Assembly (NCBI GenBank): GCA_001029295.1
Contig: LDXJ01000063.1
Location: forward strand, 62,001 to 126,000
DNA: 64,000 nt
Direction of reading: 5' to 3'
Source of the DNA: Peptococcaceae bacterium CEB3
GTDB lineage: Bacteria > Bacillota > Desulfitobacteriia > Desulfitobacteriales > Desulfitobacteriaceae
Below are positions 6,319 through 16,415 of the stretch, one piece after another; the stretch's first letter is position 1; each line of letters opens with the position of its first letter. Under the pieces are notes generated by a model, which was not told where the DNA came from, did no database searches, and worked only from the letters and a program-made list of their open reading frames with translations. A program made the translations under genes and the position numbers.

Positions 6319-7758
6319 ATGTTGGATTTGACCGGCTATAATTGGGAGAAAAATGTGCATGTATTTCGGCAGGGAGACCTCAATATTGTTTATGATGTAA
6401 ATTCGGGTTCTCTGCATATCGTCGACGAACTGACTTACCGGATTTTGCGGGTGTCGGGGACTTTAAGGGTCCTTTCGCCGGCGGAGATTAAGCGCGGGCT
6501 GGAGAGAGCCGCCGTGGATTTGGCTGCCGCGCGGGAAGTCCTGGACGAGCTGGCAGACCTGAAGGAAGAGGGTGTGCTCTTCTCAACGGAAGCGGAGGAG
6601 CTAGGCCCGAGGTACCCGGAGAAACCCCTGGTCAAGGCCATCTGTCTGCACGTGGCTCATGATTGCAATTTGCGTTGTGGCTACTGTTTTGCCGGATCGG
6701 GGGCTTTCGGCGGGAGCCGTATGTTAATGGATCCGGAAACCGGGAGGAGAGGAATTGACTTCGTCTTGTCCGCCTCCGGCCATCGCACTCACTGTGAGGT
6801 GGACTTTTTTGGCGGAGAGCCGCTGCTTAATTTTCCGCTTGTCCAAGAATTGGTTCACTATGGGCGGGAGGCAGCGGCAAAACGGCATAAGACTTTGAAG
6901 TTCACACTGACCACCAACGCGGTGCCTCTGACTAAGGAAATCGAGGAGTTTCTGGAAAAGGAAGATATCAGCGTCGTTTTGAGTTTAGATGGGCGGCCGG
7001 AAGTGCACGACAAAATGAGGCCCTTTGCCAACGGGCAGGGAAGTTATGACCGGGTGGTTCCGTCGATTCGGCGTTTTGCCCGGAGACGCCCGCAAAGTTC
7101 TCCTTATGCGGTTGGGACATATTATTATGTACGGGGAACCTACACCCACTTTAATTTGGACTTTGACCGGGATGTGGTCCACATGCTGGATTTGGGGCTT
7201 AAGCGAATATCGATGGAGCCTGTCGTCGCGTCTCCGGAAGAGCCCTACGCTTTCCAACCGGACGACTTGGAGACCATCCGGAAAAGTTATGATCGCCTGG
7301 GAGAGGAGATCATCGAACGGAGAGCGAGGGGCGAGGATTTCAGCTTTTTTCATTTCAATATGGCTTTAGAACAGGGCCCGTGTCTGCCCAAGCGGCTTGC
7401 GGGTTGTGGGGCGGGTCATGAATATGTGGCGATCTCCCCTGAAGGAGACCTTTATCCTTGTCATCAGTTCGTCGGTCAGGAACAATTTAAAATGGGTTCT
7501 CTTTATGCCGCCGATCCGCTGGGGCTGAACCGGGATCTGGTCGGGGCTTTTCGCACTGCGCACGTTTACGCCAAGCCCTCCTGCCGGGTCTGCTGGGCCC
7601 GTTTCTCCTGCAGCGGAGGGTGTCATGCCGCGAATTTCGCCGCGAGCGGAAGTTTGACGGAAGTTTACGCTTTGGGGTGTGAGTTCCAGAAAAAACGGTT
7701 GGAGATGGCCCTGTACCTCAAGGCGAAAGAGTTGCAGGCGGCGGGTCAGCACGACTGA
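6319..7758 (+). CDS. scfB: Radical SAM/SPASM SCIFF maturase (thioether-forming)
   Basis: Starts at ATG 6319 behind GAGAGAGAGG, giving 479 residues, the family's usual size. Residues 1-95 form the peptide-binding RRE-like domain (NIVYDVNSGSLHIVDELTY). The radical-SAM motif is C116-x3-C120-x2-C123 in HDCNLRCGYCFAG. The C-terminal SPASM/twitch region has many Cys: CGAGHEYVAISPEGDLYPC and CRVCWARFSCSGGC, then a final C in ALGCEF, binding auxiliary 4Fe-4S clusters. It installs thioether crosslinks in the adjacent SCIFF peptide using SAM and reductant. Confidence 0.95.
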   Translation: MLDLTGYNWEKNVHVFRQGDLNIVYDVNSGSLHIVDELTYRILRVSGTLRVLSPAEIKRGLERAAVDLAAAREVLDELADLKEEGVLFSTEAEELGPRYPEKPLVKAICLHVAHDCNLRCGYCFAGSGAFGGSRMLMDPETGRRGIDFVLSASGHRTHCEVDFFGGEPLLNFPLVQELVHYGREAAAKRHKTLKFTLTTNAVPLTKEIEEFLEKEDISVVLSLDGRPEVHDKMRPFANGQGSYDRVVPSIRRFARRRPQSSPYAVGTYYYVRGTYTHFNLDFDRDVVHMLDLGLKRISMEPVVASPEEPYAFQPDDLETIRKSYDRLGEEIIERRARGEDFSFFHFNMALEQGPCLPKRLAGCGAGHEYVAISPEGDLYPCHQFVGQEQFKMGSLYAADPLGLNRDLVGAFRTAHVYAKPSCRVCWARFSCSGGCHAANFAASGSLTEVYALGCEFQKKRLEMALYLKAKELQAAGQHD

Positions 7759-7908: not shown

Positions 7909-9927
7909 TTGACGGAGGTTGTTCGTTCGGCTTGCCCTTTGAACTGCCCGGACAGCTGCGCTTTTCTCGTTGAAAAGACGCAACAGGGACTGCGGGTTTA
8001 CGGTGACAGGGAGAACCCCATAACGCGCGGGTTTATTTGCGCTAAAGGACGGGCCTTAGCTGAACGAGTGTTTTCGCGCGACCGTTTGCGGTTTCCGCAG
8101 CTTCGGGCGGGAGCCTCCTGGAAACGGATATCCTGGGACGAAGTGTACGAACTTTTGGCAAGGGAAATCCGGCAGACTTTGGCGGAAACGGGCCCCCGGG
8201 GAATTCTTCATCATTTCGACTATGGCCATAACGGGGTTTTGCGGGCGCTAGACCGCCGATTTTTTCAGGCCTTGGGCGGCGCAACGGAGCCCAGGGGAAG
8301 TATGTGCTGGGGCGCCGGTTACCGGGCCCAGGAAATAGATTTCGGGGCGGTTCGCAGCAGCCTCTGGCAAGATCTGGTCCGGGCAGGGTTGATCATTCTT
8401 TGGGGGCGCGATCCGGCCGTTACGAACATCCACCTCCTGCCCGTTCTGCGGGAAGCGAGAAGGCAGGGGGCGAAGCTTATTGTCATCAATCCTGTCAGGG
8501 TCAGGAGTGCGGCTTTCGCAGACGCCTACTTCAGGGTTCATCCGGGCACAGACGGGGCTTTGGCTTTGGGCTTGGCGCACATTATTCTGGACCGTGGGTG
8601 GCAGGACAAAGACTTTGTCGAGGCCCATGTTGAGGGCTTTTCCGATTTTGCCGTCAGGGTGAAAGATTTCCCCCCGGCAAAGGTCTCCGCTCTCACCGGC
8701 ATGAGGGTGGAGGATATTCACTCTTTGGCGGAGTTGATTCGTCAGGAAAAACCGGTCTCATTCGTTTTGGGGTACGGACTGCAACGCTACACCCATGGGG
8801 GCAATACGGTTCGAGCCATCGATGCCCTGGCCGCGCTGACAGGCAATGTCGGGCGCCCCGGAGCGGGGGTTCACTTCGCTCACGCTTACCATAAAGGGAA
8901 GTTGAACAGTCTTTCTCTCCCCCCGGAGGACTGGCAAAGCCGGACATTTCCTCACGCTCTTCTGGCGCAAGGCTTAAGGCAAGCTGATCCGCCCGTGCGC
9001 ATGGCCTTTGTCACGCGCTCCAATCCGCTGGCTCAGCAGCCGGATTCCCTGCTTTGGCGGGAAGCATGGCAGGGAATTCGCTTTAAAGTCGTGCTTGATA
9101 CGGTTATGACAGAGACGGCCAAGCAGTCGGATCTCGTCCTGCCGGTCACGACTGTCTTCGAGGAAGAAGACTTGATCGCCACCTCGTGGAGTCCGTTTCT
9201 CCAATATGCGGGCAAAGTGTTGGAACCCCAAGGGGAAGCGAAACCGGAACCGCTTCTCTTCACAGAATTGGCCCGCGGATTGGGTTTGGGACGCTATTTT
9301 CCGTTTACGGCCTCAGAGTGGCTGGAATACGTGCTCGAACCCTTGGCACAGCAGGGGGTCACTCTGGGCCGATTGAAAGAAGGGCCTCTCCGGGCACCCT
9401 ATATTCCTGAGGTGGCCTGGGAAGATTGCCACTTTGCAACTCCGTCGGGAAAGGTCGAGTTATTTTCCGAAGTGGCCCGGAAGGAATCGGGCGATCCTGT
9501 GGCGAATTTTACCGGGGAACGGTCCGGAGTCCCGGACGGAGACGGATCCGAGCTCGAGGAAGAAACGGCGGAATTTCCGTTTTATCTTTTGACTCCTCAC
9601 CCGGCGGCGGGGATTCACTCCCAATTTATGGAGGGAAAAGAACTCCGGGTCTATATTCACCCCTCCCTGGCCGCACGATTCAGACTTTCACCGGGGGACA
9701 TGGTCCTTGTTTCGACTGCCGGGGGGCAGTTGCGGGCGCCGGTGGCAGTTTCGGAAGCTATTCACCCCGGCAGTGTTGTCATTCCGGAGGGCGCCGGTGG
9801 CAGTTTCGGAAGCTATTCACCCCGGCAGTGTTGTCATTCCGGAGGGCGCCGCGGCAGGGGGGATGGGGGTAAATCAGCTGATCAGAGGCAGGGTGTCAGA
9901 TTTGGGAGAGAGCACATCTTATTATGA
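7909..9927 (+). CDS. Molybdopterin oxidoreductase (DMSO reductase family), C-terminus frameshifted
   Basis: Starts at TTG 7909, 8 bases after AGGGGGAG. The N-terminus has the 4Fe-4S motif C9-x3-C13-x3-C17 and C44 (GFICAKGRAL). The molybdopterin domain follows (WGRDPAVTNIH and SFVLGYGLQRYTHGGNT). The dinucleotide-binding C-terminal domain begins near residue 550 (FYLLTPHPAAGIHSQF). A perfect 55-bp tandem duplication (9734-9843) shifts the frame after VVIPEG, replacing the expected tail with about 40 unrelated residues. Removing one copy restores GVNQLIRGRVSDLGES and a stop at 10006. There is no signal peptide or partner subunit, and the substrate is unknown. The enzyme may be inactive or the shift may be an assembly fault. 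Confidence 0.85.
   Translation: MTEVVRSACPLNCPDSCAFLVEKTQQGLRVYGDRENPITRGFICAKGRALAERVFSRDRLRFPQLRAGASWKRISWDEVYELLAREIRQTLAETGPRGILHHFDYGHNGVLRALDRRFFQALGGATEPRGSMCWGAGYRAQEIDFGAVRSSLWQDLVRAGLIILWGRDPAVTNIHLLPVLREARRQGAKLIVINPVRVRSAAFADAYFRVHPGTDGALALGLAHIILDRGWQDKDFVEAHVEGFSDFAVRVKDFPPAKVSALTGMRVEDIHSLAELIRQEKPVSFVLGYGLQRYTHGGNTVRAIDALAALTGNVGRPGAGVHFAHAYHKGKLNSLSLPPEDWQSRTFPHALLAQGLRQADPPVRMAFVTRSNPLAQQPDSLLWREAWQGIRFKVVLDTVMTETAKQSDLVLPVTTVFEEEDLIATSWSPFLQYAGKVLEPQGEAKPEPLLFTELARGLGLGRYFPFTASEWLEYVLEPLAQQGVTLGRLKEGPLRAPYIPEVAWEDCHFATPSGKVELFSEVARKESGDPVANFTGERSGVPDGDGSELEEETAEFPFYLLTPHPAAGIHSQFMEGKELRVYIHPSLAARFRLSPGDMVLVSTAGGQLRAPVAVSEAIHPGSVVIPEGAGGSFGSYSPRQCCHSGGRRGRGDGGKSADQRQGVRFGREHILL
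9734..9843. repeat. Perfect 55-bp tandem duplication
   Basis: Bases 9734-9788 are repeated exactly at 9789-9843, and GGGCGCCG occurs again at 9844. Fifty-five is not a multiple of three, so the duplication breaks the oxidoreductase frame. The 7-8 base repeats at the boundaries suit replication slippage. Confidence 0.95.
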
Positions 9928-10773: not shown

Positions 10774-11583
10774 TTGCACTTTGCAACATTGGCCAGTGGA
10801 AGTTCGGGGAATGCGATTTTGGTGGGTGAAGGGGACAGGGGTTTTGTGGTCGATTGCGGGATCAGTGCCAAGCGCCTGGTGGGGAACCTGGCGATCCTGC
10901 ACGTTCCGCCGGAGCAGATCGAAGGCATTATTGTCACCCATGAACATATTGATCACATTAAAGGAATCGGAGTCTTGGCCCGCAAATTAAAAATTCCCAT
11001 CTTGGCCACGGCCGGGTTGTGGGAGGAGATCGGCCTAGCAGCGGGCCCCCTGAAAGATGAACAAAAGATTATTATTCCGGAGGAAGTTTCCCTGGCCGGT
11101 CTTGATATCAAGCTTTTTCCGACATCGCATGACAGCCGGGAAAGCTACGGACTGAAGATTACGCGTCAAACCGCCGGCAAAAAAAGGCTCACCTTAGGGA
11201 TCGCGACGGACAGCGGAACGGTTACGCAAGTGATGCATGAGCACTTGCGCGGCTGTGATGCCTTGGTGGTCGAGGCTAACCACGATGAGGAGAAGCTTTG
11301 GCAAGGGCGTTACCCCTGGCCTTTGAAAAGGCGGATTGCGGGAATTTACGGCCATTTGGAGAACAGTCAGATTGCCGAGGGTCTGTTGAGCTGGATCGGG
11401 GAAAATACACAACGGGTCGTTTTGGCCCATTTGAGCGAGGAGAATAATACCCCGGAGGCCGCCTTGACCGCTGTTCTGCGCGTGCTGAGGGGTTCCCATA
11501 TTGCCAAAGAGAATCCGGAACTTCGTTTGAGGGTAGCACCCCGCCATACTCCGCATGAACTTATCTATTTACGTGAAGAATAG
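10774..11583 (+). CDS. walJ: WalJ/YycJ-type metallo-beta-lactamase-fold hydrolase
   Basis: A 269-residue protein with the MBL signature H56-x-H58-x-D60-H61 (VTHEHIDHIKG), the FPTSHDS strand, the GIATDSG turn and a late HLSEENN motif. YycJ proteins are 5'-3' exonucleases tied to the WalRK cell-wall regulon and to coordination of division with replication. TTG 10774 is used, 6 bases after AGAGGTGACG. The order walJ-htrA-rlmH is the conserved distal part of the walRK locus, but walR and walK are not in the window. Confidence 0.9.
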   Translation: MHFATLASGSSGNAILVGEGDRGFVVDCGISAKRLVGNLAILHVPPEQIEGIIVTHEHIDHIKGIGVLARKLKIPILATAGLWEEIGLAAGPLKDEQKIIIPEEVSLAGLDIKLFPTSHDSRESYGLKITRQTAGKKRLTLGIATDSGTVTQVMHEHLRGCDALVVEANHDEEKLWQGRYPWPLKRRIAGIYGHLENSQIAEGLLSWIGENTQRVVLAHLSEENNTPEAALTAVLRVLRGSHIAKENPELRLRVAPRHTPHELIYLREE

Positions 11584-11602
11584 ATTAAGGGAGGTAGAAG
11601 CT

Positions 11603-12751
11603 ATGGGCTATTACAAGGGATCAAACTACTCTTTCGGCAGGGGACCCCGCCTTCTGCCGACGGCGGTGGTGGCTTTGCTGAGTGCCGTGCTTGGCGGAAT
11701 TTTGGCGCTCGGCTTTGGCCATTCCCTATATGGAAACCGGCCGGTACAGCCGCCGGGCGGTAATCCGGTGACCATTACGCAAGCCAGTGCTCCGCCTGTG
11801 ACCTCCGGCGCCCAGCCCAATTTCCCGGCGGTTGAGATCGCCAAGACGGTCGGGCCCACGGTCGTCGGGATTGCCAATTTCCAAGGATCGAGCGGTCTGT
11901 TCGGGGGGCAGGGTCTGAGTGAGTACGGAAGCGGGTCGGGGTTTATTATTGACGCCAAGAACGGGTACATCGTGACCAACTACCACGTTATTGACGGAGC
12001 CCAGAAATTGGTTGTGAGCTTAGCGGACGGCCGCAATCTGGAGGCGAAGGTCGTGGGGGGGGATCCCCGCACGGATCTGGCGGTCATAAAGATTAGCGCG
12101 AACAATCTGACGGCCGCGCAATTGGGCGATTCCAACAAACTGCAGGTCGGAGAACCGGTGGTCGCGATAGGGAACCCGGGAGGGCAGGAATTTGCCCGTT
12201 CCGTCACCGTGGGGGTCGTTTCGGCGACAAATAGGGTTTTGAATCTGCAAGGGGAAGCCAGTTTTAACCTGATTCAGACGGATGCCGCGATCAATCCGGG
12301 CAACAGCGGCGGACCTTTGGTGAATTATCAGGGACTTGTGATCGGCATCAATTCGGCTAAAAACCAGGAGCCCGGCTTTGAAGGGATGGGGTTTGCCATC
12401 CCGATCTCGGACGCCCTGCCCACGATCAAACAGTTGATTGAAAAAGGGTATGCCAGCCATCCCGCGCTCTTGGTCAGTATCGATTCGCGCTACAATGCCG
12501 AGTACGCGGCCCAGGAGGGTTGGCCGCAAGGCGCTTATGTGGCGCAGGTGAACGCCGGCGGCCCCGCGGCCCAAGCGGGTATCAAACCCGGGGACGTGAT
12601 TACCAAGGTCAATGGCATACGAGTCCGCAATTCTCTCGAGTTGACCCACGAACTGTTCAAGTATAAGGCGGGGGAAAAAGTAACCGTGACGATTTTCCGC
12701 AACGGTACTTCGATCAACGTCCCTGTGGTTCTGTCGGGGCTCAAGTCTTAG
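11603..12751 (+). CDS. htrA: HtrA/DegP-like membrane-anchored serine protease
   Basis: A 382-residue protease. It has a basic N-terminus, a transmembrane anchor at about 19-38, a Pro-rich linker, a trypsin-like domain with the triad H128 (TNYHVI), D158 (RTDLAVI) and S235 (NPGNSGGP), and a C-terminal PDZ domain (about 290-380, AAQAGIKPGDVITKVNG). It degrades misfolded proteins outside the membrane. The ATG at 11603 follows AAGGGAGG by 7 bases. It starts just after walJ and is 4 bases from rlmH, so the three are probably co-transcribed. Confidence 0.95.
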   Translation: MGYYKGSNYSFGRGPRLLPTAVVALLSAVLGGILALGFGHSLYGNRPVQPPGGNPVTITQASAPPVTSGAQPNFPAVEIAKTVGPTVVGIANFQGSSGLFGGQGLSEYGSGSGFIIDAKNGYIVTNYHVIDGAQKLVVSLADGRNLEAKVVGGDPRTDLAVIKISANNLTAAQLGDSNKLQVGEPVVAIGNPGGQEFARSVTVGVVSATNRVLNLQGEASFNLIQTDAAINPGNSGGPLVNYQGLVIGINSAKNQEPGFEGMGFAIPISDALPTIKQLIEKGYASHPALLVSIDSRYNAEYAAQEGWPQGAYVAQVNAGGPAAQAGIKPGDVITKVNGIRVRNSLELTHELFKYKAGEKVTVTIFRNGTSINVPVVLSGLKS

Positions 12752-12755
12752 CGCT

Positions 12756-13214
12756 ATGTTTGAGATCAAAATTATCGCTGCCGGCAAAATCCGCGAACGT
12801 TACCTGCAAGAAGGCGCAGCGGCTTACCGGCAGCGCTTGCGGGCGCACGCTCGGGTCGATATCGTGGAAGTGGCGGATGAGCCCTGCCCGCAGAGGCTTT
12901 CCGAGGCGGAAGAAGAAAATGTGAGGACCCGGGAAGGGAAGCGTTTGTTGGGCAGGGTTTCGGGGGACGATTTCGTGGTCCTTTTGGATATAGAAGGCCG
13001 GGAAATGGATTCCTCCGGTTTTGCGCACCTGCTGGAGGAGCTGGCGGAGCGTGGAAAGACCCGCCTCGTTTTCATCATCGGAGGTTCTTTAGGGGTGGCC
13101 GACAGAGTGCGGAGGAGAGCCGATTTTCGCTGGTCTTTCTCCCGGCTCACTTTTCCCCATCAACTGATGCGCTTGGCGCTCCTGGAACAGCTTAACAGAA
13201 TTTTGGTCAGGTAA
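12756..13214 (+). CDS. rlmH: RlmH-family 23S rRNA pseudouridine-1915 N3-methyltransferase, lacking the C-terminal tail
   Basis: A SPOUT-class methyltransferase of 152 residues. The SAM-binding knot is intact: FIIGGSLGVADRV, then FSRLTFPHQLMRLALLEQ. Typical RlmH proteins continue for about 16 more residues (IYRAF...GEPYHK), with a conserved PYHK tail that helps form the active site across the dimer. Here the chain ends LLEQLNRILVR, and no alternative frame restores the tail. Position after htrA is canonical. A second RlmH-like gene that keeps the tail lies convergent 92 bases downstream, so the two may work together. Confidence 0.9.
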   Translation: MFEIKIIAAGKIRERYLQEGAAAYRQRLRAHARVDIVEVADEPCPQRLSEAEEENVRTREGKRLLGRVSGDDFVVLLDIEGREMDSSGFAHLLEELAERGKTRLVFIIGGSLGVADRVRRRADFRWSFSRLTFPHQLMRLALLEQLNRILVR

Positions 13215-13306
13215 GAAGTCTTACGAATGGATGAAGCTGACAGACGAAAGCCGATGGGTCGAAGCGACTGATTATCTCGGCAGCGGGAGTCGGGGCCGGA
13301 AGAGTC

Positions 13307-13876
13307 CTACTTGTGGTAAGGTTCGTGATTTAGAATGCGGTAAGCGCGATAGAGCTGTTCGTATACCAGCGTGGCCTGTAAGCCCAGGTCCATGTCCAAA
13401 GGAGTCAGGGTCAGGATCTCATATTCAGGATATACGGCGGAAGACGAGAGAGCAGGCGACGAAAGAGGGGAAGACGAGGAAGCTGGCGACGAGACAGGGG
13501 AAGACGAGAAAGCAGAAGGCGAGAAAGGGGATACTTCAGCTTGATCCGGGATGATCCGGGGTGCGTTCCGGATGAGTCCTGTCAAGGTAGGGAGTAAGTT
13601 GGGCGCACTCAGTATAAAGGCGGTTTCCGAGATTCCCGCAAACATTAAGGTGTTGATTCTGTCGGCCAATTTCTCGGAGGACAGCGATTCTCCGCCATTG
13701 TGGGATATCAGGATCTTGTGAACTTGCGGGGAGAGATCGCTCCTCAGTTGTTCACCGGATATGAAGGGCACTTGGCGTATCCGGCAATACCGGGTTAAAC
13801 GCTTTTCGTACTCACGTATGGCATCGACGTAGAAACCCTCGATTTTTCCCCCTAAGAGATAAACACTGAAGTTCAT
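13307..13876 (-). CDS. RlmH-like SPOUT protein with degenerate SAM loop and Ser/Pro insert
   Basis: 189 residues, starting at ATG 13876 with GGAGGAC 8 bases upstream, so it looks expressed. The N-terminus (MNFSVYLLGGKIEGFYVDAIREYEKRL) and the C-terminus (VYEQLYRAYRILNHEPYHK) are RlmH-like. The glycine-rich SAM loop is replaced by FILSAPNLLP, and the FPHQL segment is replaced by LDMDLGLQ. A 30-residue Ser/Pro insert encoded by three 30-bp repeats lies just before the C-terminal strand; without it the length is 159, the usual RlmH length. Methylation alone looks unlikely. It may be a partner subunit of the preceding RlmH, or a decaying paralogue. Confidence 0.75.
   Translation of the reverse strand: MNFSVYLLGGKIEGFYVDAIREYEKRLTRYCRIRQVPFISGEQLRSDLSPQVHKILISHNGGESLSSEKLADRINTLMFAGISETAFILSAPNLLPTLTGLIRNAPRIIPDQAEVSPFSPSAFSSSPVSSPASSSSPLSSPALSSSAVYPEYEILTLTPLDMDLGLQATLVYEQLYRAYRILNHEPYHK
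13441..13530. repeat. Three tandem 30-bp repeats in the RlmH-like gene
   Basis: Units at 13441-13470, 13471-13500 and 13501-13530 each begin AAGACGAG and end with GGGG. On the minus strand they encode 10-residue units such as PLSSPALSSS and PVSSPASSSS. The period is a multiple of three, so the frame is kept. Confidence 0.9.
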
Positions 13877-13934
13877 GAGAAAATGTCCTCCGTTATGGTG
13901 CTAAGATGAGTCGCTCCGTTTTGCAAGCGGCTTA

Positions 13935-14276: not shown

Positions 14277-16415
14277 ATGAGTGTGGACAAGGTTTTCCGG
14301 CAAAGAATGCGTGGGACCCACTTTCTCTTGACCGTCATGTTGGCGGCCGTTTTTTGTTTCTCGTTTGCGCCAAGGGTTTTTGCGGCCACTACATCGTTTG
14401 ATACCGCCAGCACCGCGGTGCTCCCCGGCAGCATTGCGGGCACTGATCGTATCGGGACGGCCATCAAGATTGCCCAAGCCGGATGGCCCGACGGTTCGCA
14501 AAACGTGCTGGTCGTTCCCGCGGACCGGGCCAATTTGGTGGATGCGCTGTCGGCGGCTCCCCTGGCCGGGCAGCTCAAAGCACCGATTCTCGTTACCTAC
14601 AAGTCGGGGTTGGATTCCCGGGTCGCGGCGGAAATAACGGCTTTGCAAGCGACCCATATCTATGCGATTGGCGCGCTCAGCCCTGCCGTCGTCAATTCTC
14701 TGAAGGGGATCGCCGGAGCAAGTGTGATTCCGCTGCAAGGCGCATCCCGGACGGATACGGCCGCTTTGGTAGCGAAGCAATTGACAGGCAGCCGGGGGTC
14801 TTTTGTGGTCGGCTATAATGGTATTCCCGATGCGCTTTCCGCCTCTTCCTATGCGGCCGCTAACGGTTATGCCATTCTCATCGCCAACCCGAACGGAACT
14901 CTGCCCTCGTCTGAGGCCCCTTTCACCGGCGCTGGGGTCTATGTCCTGGGCGGGCCATCATTGGTCGCAGATATTCCGGGGGCAACTCGTCTCGCCGGGA
15001 CGGACCGTTACGCGACGAACGAGAAAATCATTACCGGTCTGACGTTTAAATATGACAAAGTCTATTTAGCGAACGGTGAGACGATGGTCGACGCCTTGGC
15101 GGGTTCATCTCTGGCCGCGCAGACCGATTCCCCTATGGTCCTCGTTAACAGTGACACAACCAAGCCTATTCCCGCCAATGTCAGCAAAGAGTTTACTTAC
15201 GGTACTCAGGTCATTGGCCTAGGCGGGAGCGGAGTTGTTCCGGCCAGTCTTCTCAACTTGGCGCAGCAAGCCGCCGGTACGGTGGTCTCGGCAGCTCCGG
15301 TCAGCGTAACGACCAAGGCTGGTCAGGCGCCCGTATTGCCGGCCACCGTGACGGCCACGATGAGTGACGGTACAACTCAGAGTGTTGCGGTGACGTGGGC
15401 AAGTGTGGCATCAAGTGTGTACGCCGCCCCCGGAACGTTTGCGGTGAGCGGGGAAATTGCGCGCTCGGCCGTTAAGGCCAAGGCGAATGTGGTGGTGACC
15501 GGGTCCGCGCCAACGCTAACCGGCTTGCCGCCGGTGAGCATCGCGACCACCGTCGGAAATCCCCCCGTGTTACCGGCGACGTTGACGGCGACGATGAGTG
15601 ACGGAACAACTCGGGTTGTGGCAGTCACTTGGTCCAACGTCGCTCCGAGCCAATACGCTTCGGCGGGAACATTTGTCGTCGTGGGCAGAGTGGCGGATTC
15701 GACCTTGACGGCTACGGCTACGGTAACGGTAACAGTGACTTCGGTCAAGCCAGTGTACTATGGCAGCGATTCCGGTACGGGCAGTTCTCCTTTCACGCCA
15801 GATTTCTATATTGGCCAACTGGGTTACGGAACCCATGAGCATTTCGATCCGAGTTCGGGCGGGGACGATCACAGTGGCTCTTACTTTAACGGCAGCGGCG
15901 CGGCCAAAGCTACCTGGATTTACGGTTACTGGCTGGTGTCAGGGCTTAGTGCCGCACCCAAGGGGATAACGGCCGCCGCCTGGGGGCAAAAACAAGCACA
16001 GGTGGCTTACCAGGCCTTTCAGGATTTGAGTAAGTACTATGGTTCCAAGGTCAAGCCGGTTGTGTTTGTGGATGTTGAAGACTGCGGCGGAGGGCTGGAT
16101 GCCAAGGACTACACGAATAATCAGCAAATTTACACGTCCTTTGTCAACTGGCTCAGGCAGAACAGTACGGTAAAAGTCGGGACCTATTCGAGTCCGTCTG
16201 AGTGGGGCAGCCTGACCATGGGGTCAAACTTTGCGCCCCTCACACCGGGGTATTATTGGGTGGCCGATTATCCCGACGTGGGTGGACATCCTGATCAAAA
16301 CGCCTTGACCCCGTCCAATCCGTTTTGGGTCAACTTTCCCCAAACGAGTGAACAAGCCGAAATATGGCAATTTGAGGGAACTCCAGATTACAATGTGGCC
16401 CGCGTTCTTCCCTAA
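14277..16415 (+). CDS. Secreted cell-wall-binding protein with CWB2 repeats, Big_4 domains and a GH25-like DUF1906 domain
   Basis: 712 residues with a signal peptide cleaved near FAPRVFA-A (about 36). Three cell-wall-binding repeat 2 modules follow (about 50-330; e.g. GTDRIGTAIKIAQAGWP and LAGTDRYATNEKI), which in this family anchor to anionic wall polymers. Two bacterial Ig-like type 4 domains come next (about 340-500; each has ATMSDGTT). The C-terminal 220 residues form a TIM-barrel, glycoside-hydrolase-like DUF1906 domain (FYIGQLGYGT, VVFVDVEDCGGG, YYWVADYP and EIWQFEGTPDY). GGAGGAG lies 15 bases upstream of the ATG. It is probably a surface wall-remodelling or adhesion protein. Confidence 0.88.
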   Translation: MSVDKVFRQRMRGTHFLLTVMLAAVFCFSFAPRVFAATTSFDTASTAVLPGSIAGTDRIGTAIKIAQAGWPDGSQNVLVVPADRANLVDALSAAPLAGQLKAPILVTYKSGLDSRVAAEITALQATHIYAIGALSPAVVNSLKGIAGASVIPLQGASRTDTAALVAKQLTGSRGSFVVGYNGIPDALSASSYAAANGYAILIANPNGTLPSSEAPFTGAGVYVLGGPSLVADIPGATRLAGTDRYATNEKIITGLTFKYDKVYLANGETMVDALAGSSLAAQTDSPMVLVNSDTTKPIPANVSKEFTYGTQVIGLGGSGVVPASLLNLAQQAAGTVVSAAPVSVTTKAGQAPVLPATVTATMSDGTTQSVAVTWASVASSVYAAPGTFAVSGEIARSAVKAKANVVVTGSAPTLTGLPPVSIATTVGNPPVLPATLTATMSDGTTRVVAVTWSNVAPSQYASAGTFVVVGRVADSTLTATATVTVTVTSVKPVYYGSDSGTGSSPFTPDFYIGQLGYGTHEHFDPSSGGDDHSGSYFNGSGAAKATWIYGYWLVSGLSAAPKGITAAAWGQKQAQVAYQAFQDLSKYYGSKVKPVVFVDVEDCGGGLDAKDYTNNQQIYTSFVNWLRQNSTVKVGTYSSPSEWGSLTMGSNFAPLTPGYYWVADYPDVGGHPDQNALTPSNPFWVNFPQTSEQAEIWQFEGTPDYNVARVLP

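Follow-up and report, generated by a model that had tools for sequence, protein, structure and literature searches.

Two adjacent RlmH paralogues that share out the catalytic residues of the family look like a maintained two-subunit enzyme

Two convergent genes of the RlmH family, denoted rlmH-A and rlmH-B, lie side by side in the genome of Peptococcaceae bacterium CEB3, within the 64,000-nucleotide stretch of contig LDXJ01000063.1 (positions 62,001 to 126,000) that was analysed as a whole and is referred to here as the window. The product of A keeps the SAM pocket and lacks the catalytic C-terminal tail, and the product of B keeps the tail and lacks the pocket. The pair resembles a two-subunit enzyme that is being maintained more than a duplicate in decay. 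We consider it very probable that A and B constitute an obligate heterodimeric RlmH with a single composite site methylating pseudouridine 1915, a reading strongly supported by sequence evidence and by no experiment. The complex, its catalysis, its target and the inactivity of either subunit alone are all inferred; no complex was modelled, and no biochemical data are at hand. The features of the locus are as follows:

11555–12751, + strand: htrA-like serine protease gene from the ORF list, directly upstream of A with a 4-nt gap.
12756–13214, + strand: rlmH-A, 152 aa, putative SAM-binding RlmH subunit without the catalytic C-terminal tail.
13307–13876, − strand: rlmH-B, 189 aa, putative tail donor convergent to A, with no SAM loop, no FPHQ and an intact PYHK.
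13310–13414, − strand: strand β5, helix α5 and tail of B (LTLTPLDMDLGLQATLVYEQLYRAYRILNHEPYHK), containing the equivalents of E138, R142, Y152, H153 and K154.
13439–13531, no strand assigned: 30-bp tandem repeat (3.1 copies, TRF), in frame, in the disordered Ser/Pro/Ala insert of B.
13877–13891, − strand: ribosome binding site region of B, GGAGGacattttctc before the ATG, read from the sequence.

The htrA-like gene is the usual neighbour of rlmH here, and the same gene order is present at loci L034 and L035. The A protein contains the SAM loop FIIGGSLG and the TFPHQL segment and terminates at LLEQLNRILVR without PYHK, so that both the open reading frame and the motifs ascribed to it in the original prediction were confirmed. 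In the alignment it retains G103, G107, TFPHQ with H129, and E138 (E. coli numbering). It scores 152 bits against PF02590 (cut-off 27), with a profile match that stops at position 144 of 154, passes the NCBIfam RlmH model NF000985 (181 versus a threshold of 172) and matches the RlmH structure 1to0 by sequence with an E value of 5e-41. No relic of a tail was found in any frame within the 75 nt that follow the A stop codon.

The B gene is convergent to A, 92 bp downstream of it, and carries a GGAGG about 10 nt 5' of its ATG. The glycine-rich loop is replaced by FILSAPNLLP, MDLGLQ is present where canonical RlmH carries FPHQL, and the tail, YRILNHEPYHK, is perfect; hence the four properties originally attributed to B, namely a perfect tail, a ribosome binding site, an altered SAM loop and the loss of FPHQL, all hold on the sequence. 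Furthermore, about 19 residues between β2 and α2 are missing. B is recognized by PF02590 (54.4 bits, cut-off 27) and fails NF000985 (48.8, threshold 172); against a B-type profile it reaches 161.6 bits, compared with at most 104.5 for canonical RlmH. The low-complexity insert spans 57 residues in the window B, 26 in that of Acididesulfobacillus acetoxydans (G001, a closed genome of 4.52 Mb from the same genus) and almost none elsewhere. Judged by sequence, the window B would be unusual solely by this insert of 30-bp repeats.

Two further observations concern the surroundings of the pair. A large secreted protein with cell-wall-binding-2-like repeats (window 14277–16415) adjoins it, as it does in A. 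acetoxydans. Near the 3' end of a molybdopterin oxidoreductase ORF (7909–9927), a 55-bp unit is perfectly repeated in tandem (2.1 copies, window 9734–9851), and the C-terminus encoded there is unlike that of the A. acetoxydans protein; given this difference and a repeat length not divisible by 3, the end of this ORF looks frameshifted.

In E. coli RlmH, two monomers jointly build the active site (Koh et al. 2017, PMC5430550). From one monomer come K11, K42, R43 and the SAM pocket, of which the 103-GGPEG-107 loop and H129 are part, and the other provides R25, R26, R142, R154 and the tail; E138, Y152, H153 and R154 are indispensable (PMC5430550). These positions were tabulated in 67 canonical, 16 A and 17 B proteins, in E. 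coli numbering with the sequence taken from the PDB match. Ten of the 16–17 aligned pairs come from one genus and hence are not independent.

On the SAM side, G103 is invariant in canonical (67/67) and A proteins (16/16) and present in 14 of the 17 B proteins, and G107 and H129, equally invariant in the first two groups (67/67 and 16/16 each), occur in no B protein (0/17). The pocket with its glycine-rich loop and TFPHQ is found in all 16 A proteins and not in B. The K42/R43 loop is likewise retained in A and deleted in 17/17 B. That B no longer binds SAM is inferred from its residues. On the partner side the pattern is reversed: K25 (canonical 67/67), R26 (66/67), Y141 (67/67) and R142 (67/67) are each kept in 17/17 B and in only 9, 2, 10 and 5, respectively, of the 16 A proteins, ten of which carry Lys at position 26. 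Y152 and H153, present in 67/67 canonical and 17/17 B proteins, occur in none of A, and the few A entries in the tail columns are alignment filler (e.g. NHL) and not a real tail. A YH[KR] tail is therefore present in 17/17 B and no A, and the two proteins jointly carry pocket and tail. The equivalents of E138, R142, Y152, H153 and K154 are conserved in all 17 B proteins.

The complementary motif losses originally proposed were borne out, in that the residues kept and lost match the cis/trans assignment of the E. coli crystal structure. Since R26, R142 and the K42/R43 loop lay outside that earlier description, they provide an independent check of the split. What counts against a simple partition is that A and B both keep E138, which such a partition does not require; E138 and Q139 are retained in canonical, A and B proteins alike. 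K11 aligned uncleanly.

Single-chain AlphaFold2 models were obtained for the B proteins of A. acetoxydans (pLDDT 78.5, pTM 0.75) and of the window (pLDDT 75.5, pTM 0.68); no dimer was modelled. Both show the order β1-α1-β2-α2-β3-α3-β4, then no regular α4 and a disordered insert, followed by β5-α5. In the window B, residues 97–147 fall below a pLDDT of 50 and a helix spans residues 164–182. Solved RlmH structures are the top matches of both models (Foldseek E of about 1e-10), far above other SPOUT proteins, and the VIA-align Z scores of the window B are 19.4 to 1to0, 19.0 to 4fak and 16.9 to 5twj, compared with at most 10.9 for other SPOUT proteins. B is thus predicted by these models to have the RlmH SPOUT fold.

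The proposal that related genomes should contain RlmH pairs with their motifs divided in this way was met: A and B lie next to each other in 17 genomes from seven genera and six families, the window genome included. In all 17 the paralogous subunits, one of them without the SAM loop, are adjacent, in convergent orientation in 15 and in tandem in two (G123 and G460). Finding the same split in 16 other genomes excludes chance. The same convergent pair is present in A. acetoxydans, and the closed genome G016, from another genus of the window's family, carries a convergent pair with a compact B of 132 residues without insert. A B profile run against 398 genomes from the phylum revealed six further pairs (G105, G123, G327, G358, G452 and G460), in each of which A is adjacent to B and its PF02590 match ends at 141–149 of 154. 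With an improved profile, B-type proteins score 161–214 bits and the best canonical RlmH 104.5, and the gap between is empty. All ten species of the genus that includes G327 carry the pair, the 3' ends of A and B overlapping by 10 bp in most of them, whereas only one RlmH gene, a complete one, is found in the sister genera. These counts cover this phylum. Because the pair-bearing genomes are related, the number of independent events outweighs the raw counts.

Two outcomes that would have refuted the heterodimer reading did not materialize. A third complete rlmH was found neither in the window genome (a scan of the 5.3-Mb, 98.5% complete assembly detected no third RlmH-family gene) nor in the closed pair-bearing relatives G001, G016 and G474–G477, and no third intact RlmH was detected in any of the 17 pair-bearing genomes. 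Nor was a relative found with a complete A beside a frameshifted relic of B. Moreover, among the genomes scanned with PF02590, an intact tail-less RlmH always lies beside B, B is missing wherever RlmH is complete, and every B found is accompanied by a tail-less A. A further scan of genome contigs returned only the A. acetoxydans pair and one canonical gammaproteobacterial RlmH; in viral contigs, a split RlmH was not found, only canonical RlmH.

Two genomes with apparently two RlmH copies were rejected as candidates. In G010 the two copies reflect a contig break and not a split pair. G191 has a complete RlmH and a frameshifted, near-identical copy about 7 kb away (L066 4671–5150 and 11769–12247), which is not of the B type; it is a recent ordinary duplicate in decay and contrasts with the split pair. 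In G003 only convergent relics of the B tail and the A helix remain (L036 6539–6622, + strand, and 6686–6739, − strand), with another gene between them and htrA; as the relics of both lie convergently side by side, A and B were lost together. Separately, a strong hairpin is located between the convergent A and B stop codons in G016 (L035 about 6356–6394) and G358 (L064 about 2147–2185), which could be a shared bidirectional terminator. No comparable hairpin between A and B was seen on reading the window sequence.

A and B are both under purifying selection. Between the window and A. acetoxydans, ω is 0.21 for A (95% CI 0.12–0.37) and 0.29 for the B core (CI 0.17–0.50), compared with 0.08 for htrA; the constraint on A is somewhat weaker than that on its neighbours htrA and mbl, a point against the heterodimer reading. 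Within the ten-species genus the median ω is 0.17 for A and 0.19 for B.

In the phylogenetic tree the B genes form a single clade (support 99/99). The A proteins, analysed without the tail columns, require at least six state changes, and a tree that unites all A in one clade fits worse by 105 log units and is rejected (p-AU 0.0003). The A of G016 groups (100/99) with the complete RlmHs of its own genus, sharing about 79% identity with them, and for the A genes of the G327 genus the sister group consists of complete RlmHs of their family. As A nests among the complete RlmHs of its relatives, the tail was lost several times, always beside B. Certain A proteins sit on long branches whose position in the tree is uncertain. 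A single clade of the three A genes of the window's family (window, G001 and G016) escapes formal rejection (p 0.056), which leaves the number of tail losses within this family uncertain. We lean, by a narrow balance, towards B being a dedicated tail donor of single origin that entered, or was kept in, unrelated lineages beside a resident rlmH, which then lost its own tail independently, a repeated ratchet from homodimer to obligate heterodimer; B, lacking the bight-2 loop and helix α4, may be a SPOUT protein whose knot no longer works or is absent altogether.

In the proposed mechanism, A would hold the methyl donor in its knotted SAM pocket, and B, an RlmH-derived protein without such a pocket, would serve as the second protomer of an antiparallel dimer. 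Its tail (Y152, H153 and K154, with E138 and R142) and the basic patch K25/R26 would be inserted beside the pocket of A, giving a dimer with one active site in a fixed orientation that would methylate pseudouridine 1915 in helix 69 of 23S rRNA. Helix 69 is unchanged in the window genome, G001 and G016, and RluA-family pseudouridine synthases are present, and for these reasons pseudouridine 1915 is the most likely, though inferred, target.

Genus g6 of the window's family (about 30 genomes, most nearly complete, e.g. G006 and G014) has no RlmH-family gene, which also counts against the heterodimer reading. Since it lives without RlmH, the modification is dispensable there; either it was lost or an unknown enzyme replaces RlmH. 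Helix 69 and RluA-family synthases are present in g6 despite the absence of RlmH. A B-type gene was considered as an explanation for the missing RlmH and was not found there with the B profiles.

The original prediction had named decay as the simpler alternative: a duplicated rlmH with both copies degenerating, A truncated and B a relic. The low-complexity repeat insert in B, the roughly 30 g6 genomes without RlmH and the mere fragments of both genes in G003 are what such a process might leave. However, the low ω of A and B (well below 1), the fixation of the pair across a ten-species genus and the repeated loss of the A tail only where B is present contradict it. Open frames with the same split persist in 17 genomes, the tail and the trans residues of B are invariant in 17/17, the insert of B changes length in frame and no tail relics occur in the 75 nt after the A stop codon, and we regard decay as highly improbable.

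Equally improbable is the possibility that A, as a monomer or homodimer, functions by an altered mechanism and that B is a separate protein, for instance a ribosome-binding regulator occupying the same site through its RlmH tail. E138 is kept in all A copies and the two genes are physically separate, convergent in 15 of 17 genomes, as this would allow; but Y152, H153 and R154, each essential in E. coli, are all missing from A, which loosens precisely the partner-side residues R26 and R142, and in no genome was B found other than beside a tail-less A. Least plausible of all is a genuine A-B heterodimer with a changed substrate, such as another pseudouridine or uridine in rRNA. B has indeed lost one basic loop (the K42/R43 region), and the dimer orientation would now be fixed; yet this loop is a feature of the SAM-side monomer and survives in A, helix 69 shows no change and no RlmH gene besides A and B was found in the genome. 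An obligate heterodimer acting on pseudouridine 1915 remains the preferred reading.

RlmH (YbeA/OrfX, PF02590, COG1576) is regarded as a minimal SPOUT homodimer. The A/B pair resembles it in fold, in its position after htrA and in jointly holding all catalytic residues, with a composite site between protomers. It differs in consisting of two gene products that contribute half a site each, B without the SAM pocket and A without the tail, and in having one possible site instead of two. Trypanosoma brucei mt-LAF5/6 is also a SPOUT dimer of two different proteins, involved in large-subunit rRNA assembly; it belongs to the mitochondrion, has the A-loop as its site of action (2'-O type by context) and is unrelated to RlmH (cited in PMC12123411). 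METTL3-METTL14 and Trm6-Trm61 similarly combine an active SAM-binding subunit with a paralogue required for activity, and METTL14 does not bind SAM (PMC10908127, PMC5007650). These are, however, eukaryotic Rossmann-fold enzymes, and the RlmH partner would itself donate essential tail residues. No description of a split RlmH pair was found in the open-access literature, preprints and most subscription journals being outside the search. Open-access accounts of bacterial RlmH and related SPOUT proteins describe homodimers or monomers, the Trypanosoma mitochondrial heterodimer being the sole exception.

A review of SPOUT enzymes suggests that only one RlmH site acts (PMC9508554). If the A-B enzyme is real, it would be a natural single-site enzyme that settles by construction whether one or two sites act, and its division places every residue on either the SAM side or the tail side. 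Annotation pipelines will label A or B as a complete RlmH or as a fragment. The pair would offer a bacterial, experimentally easy case of the repeated evolution of an obligate heteromer.
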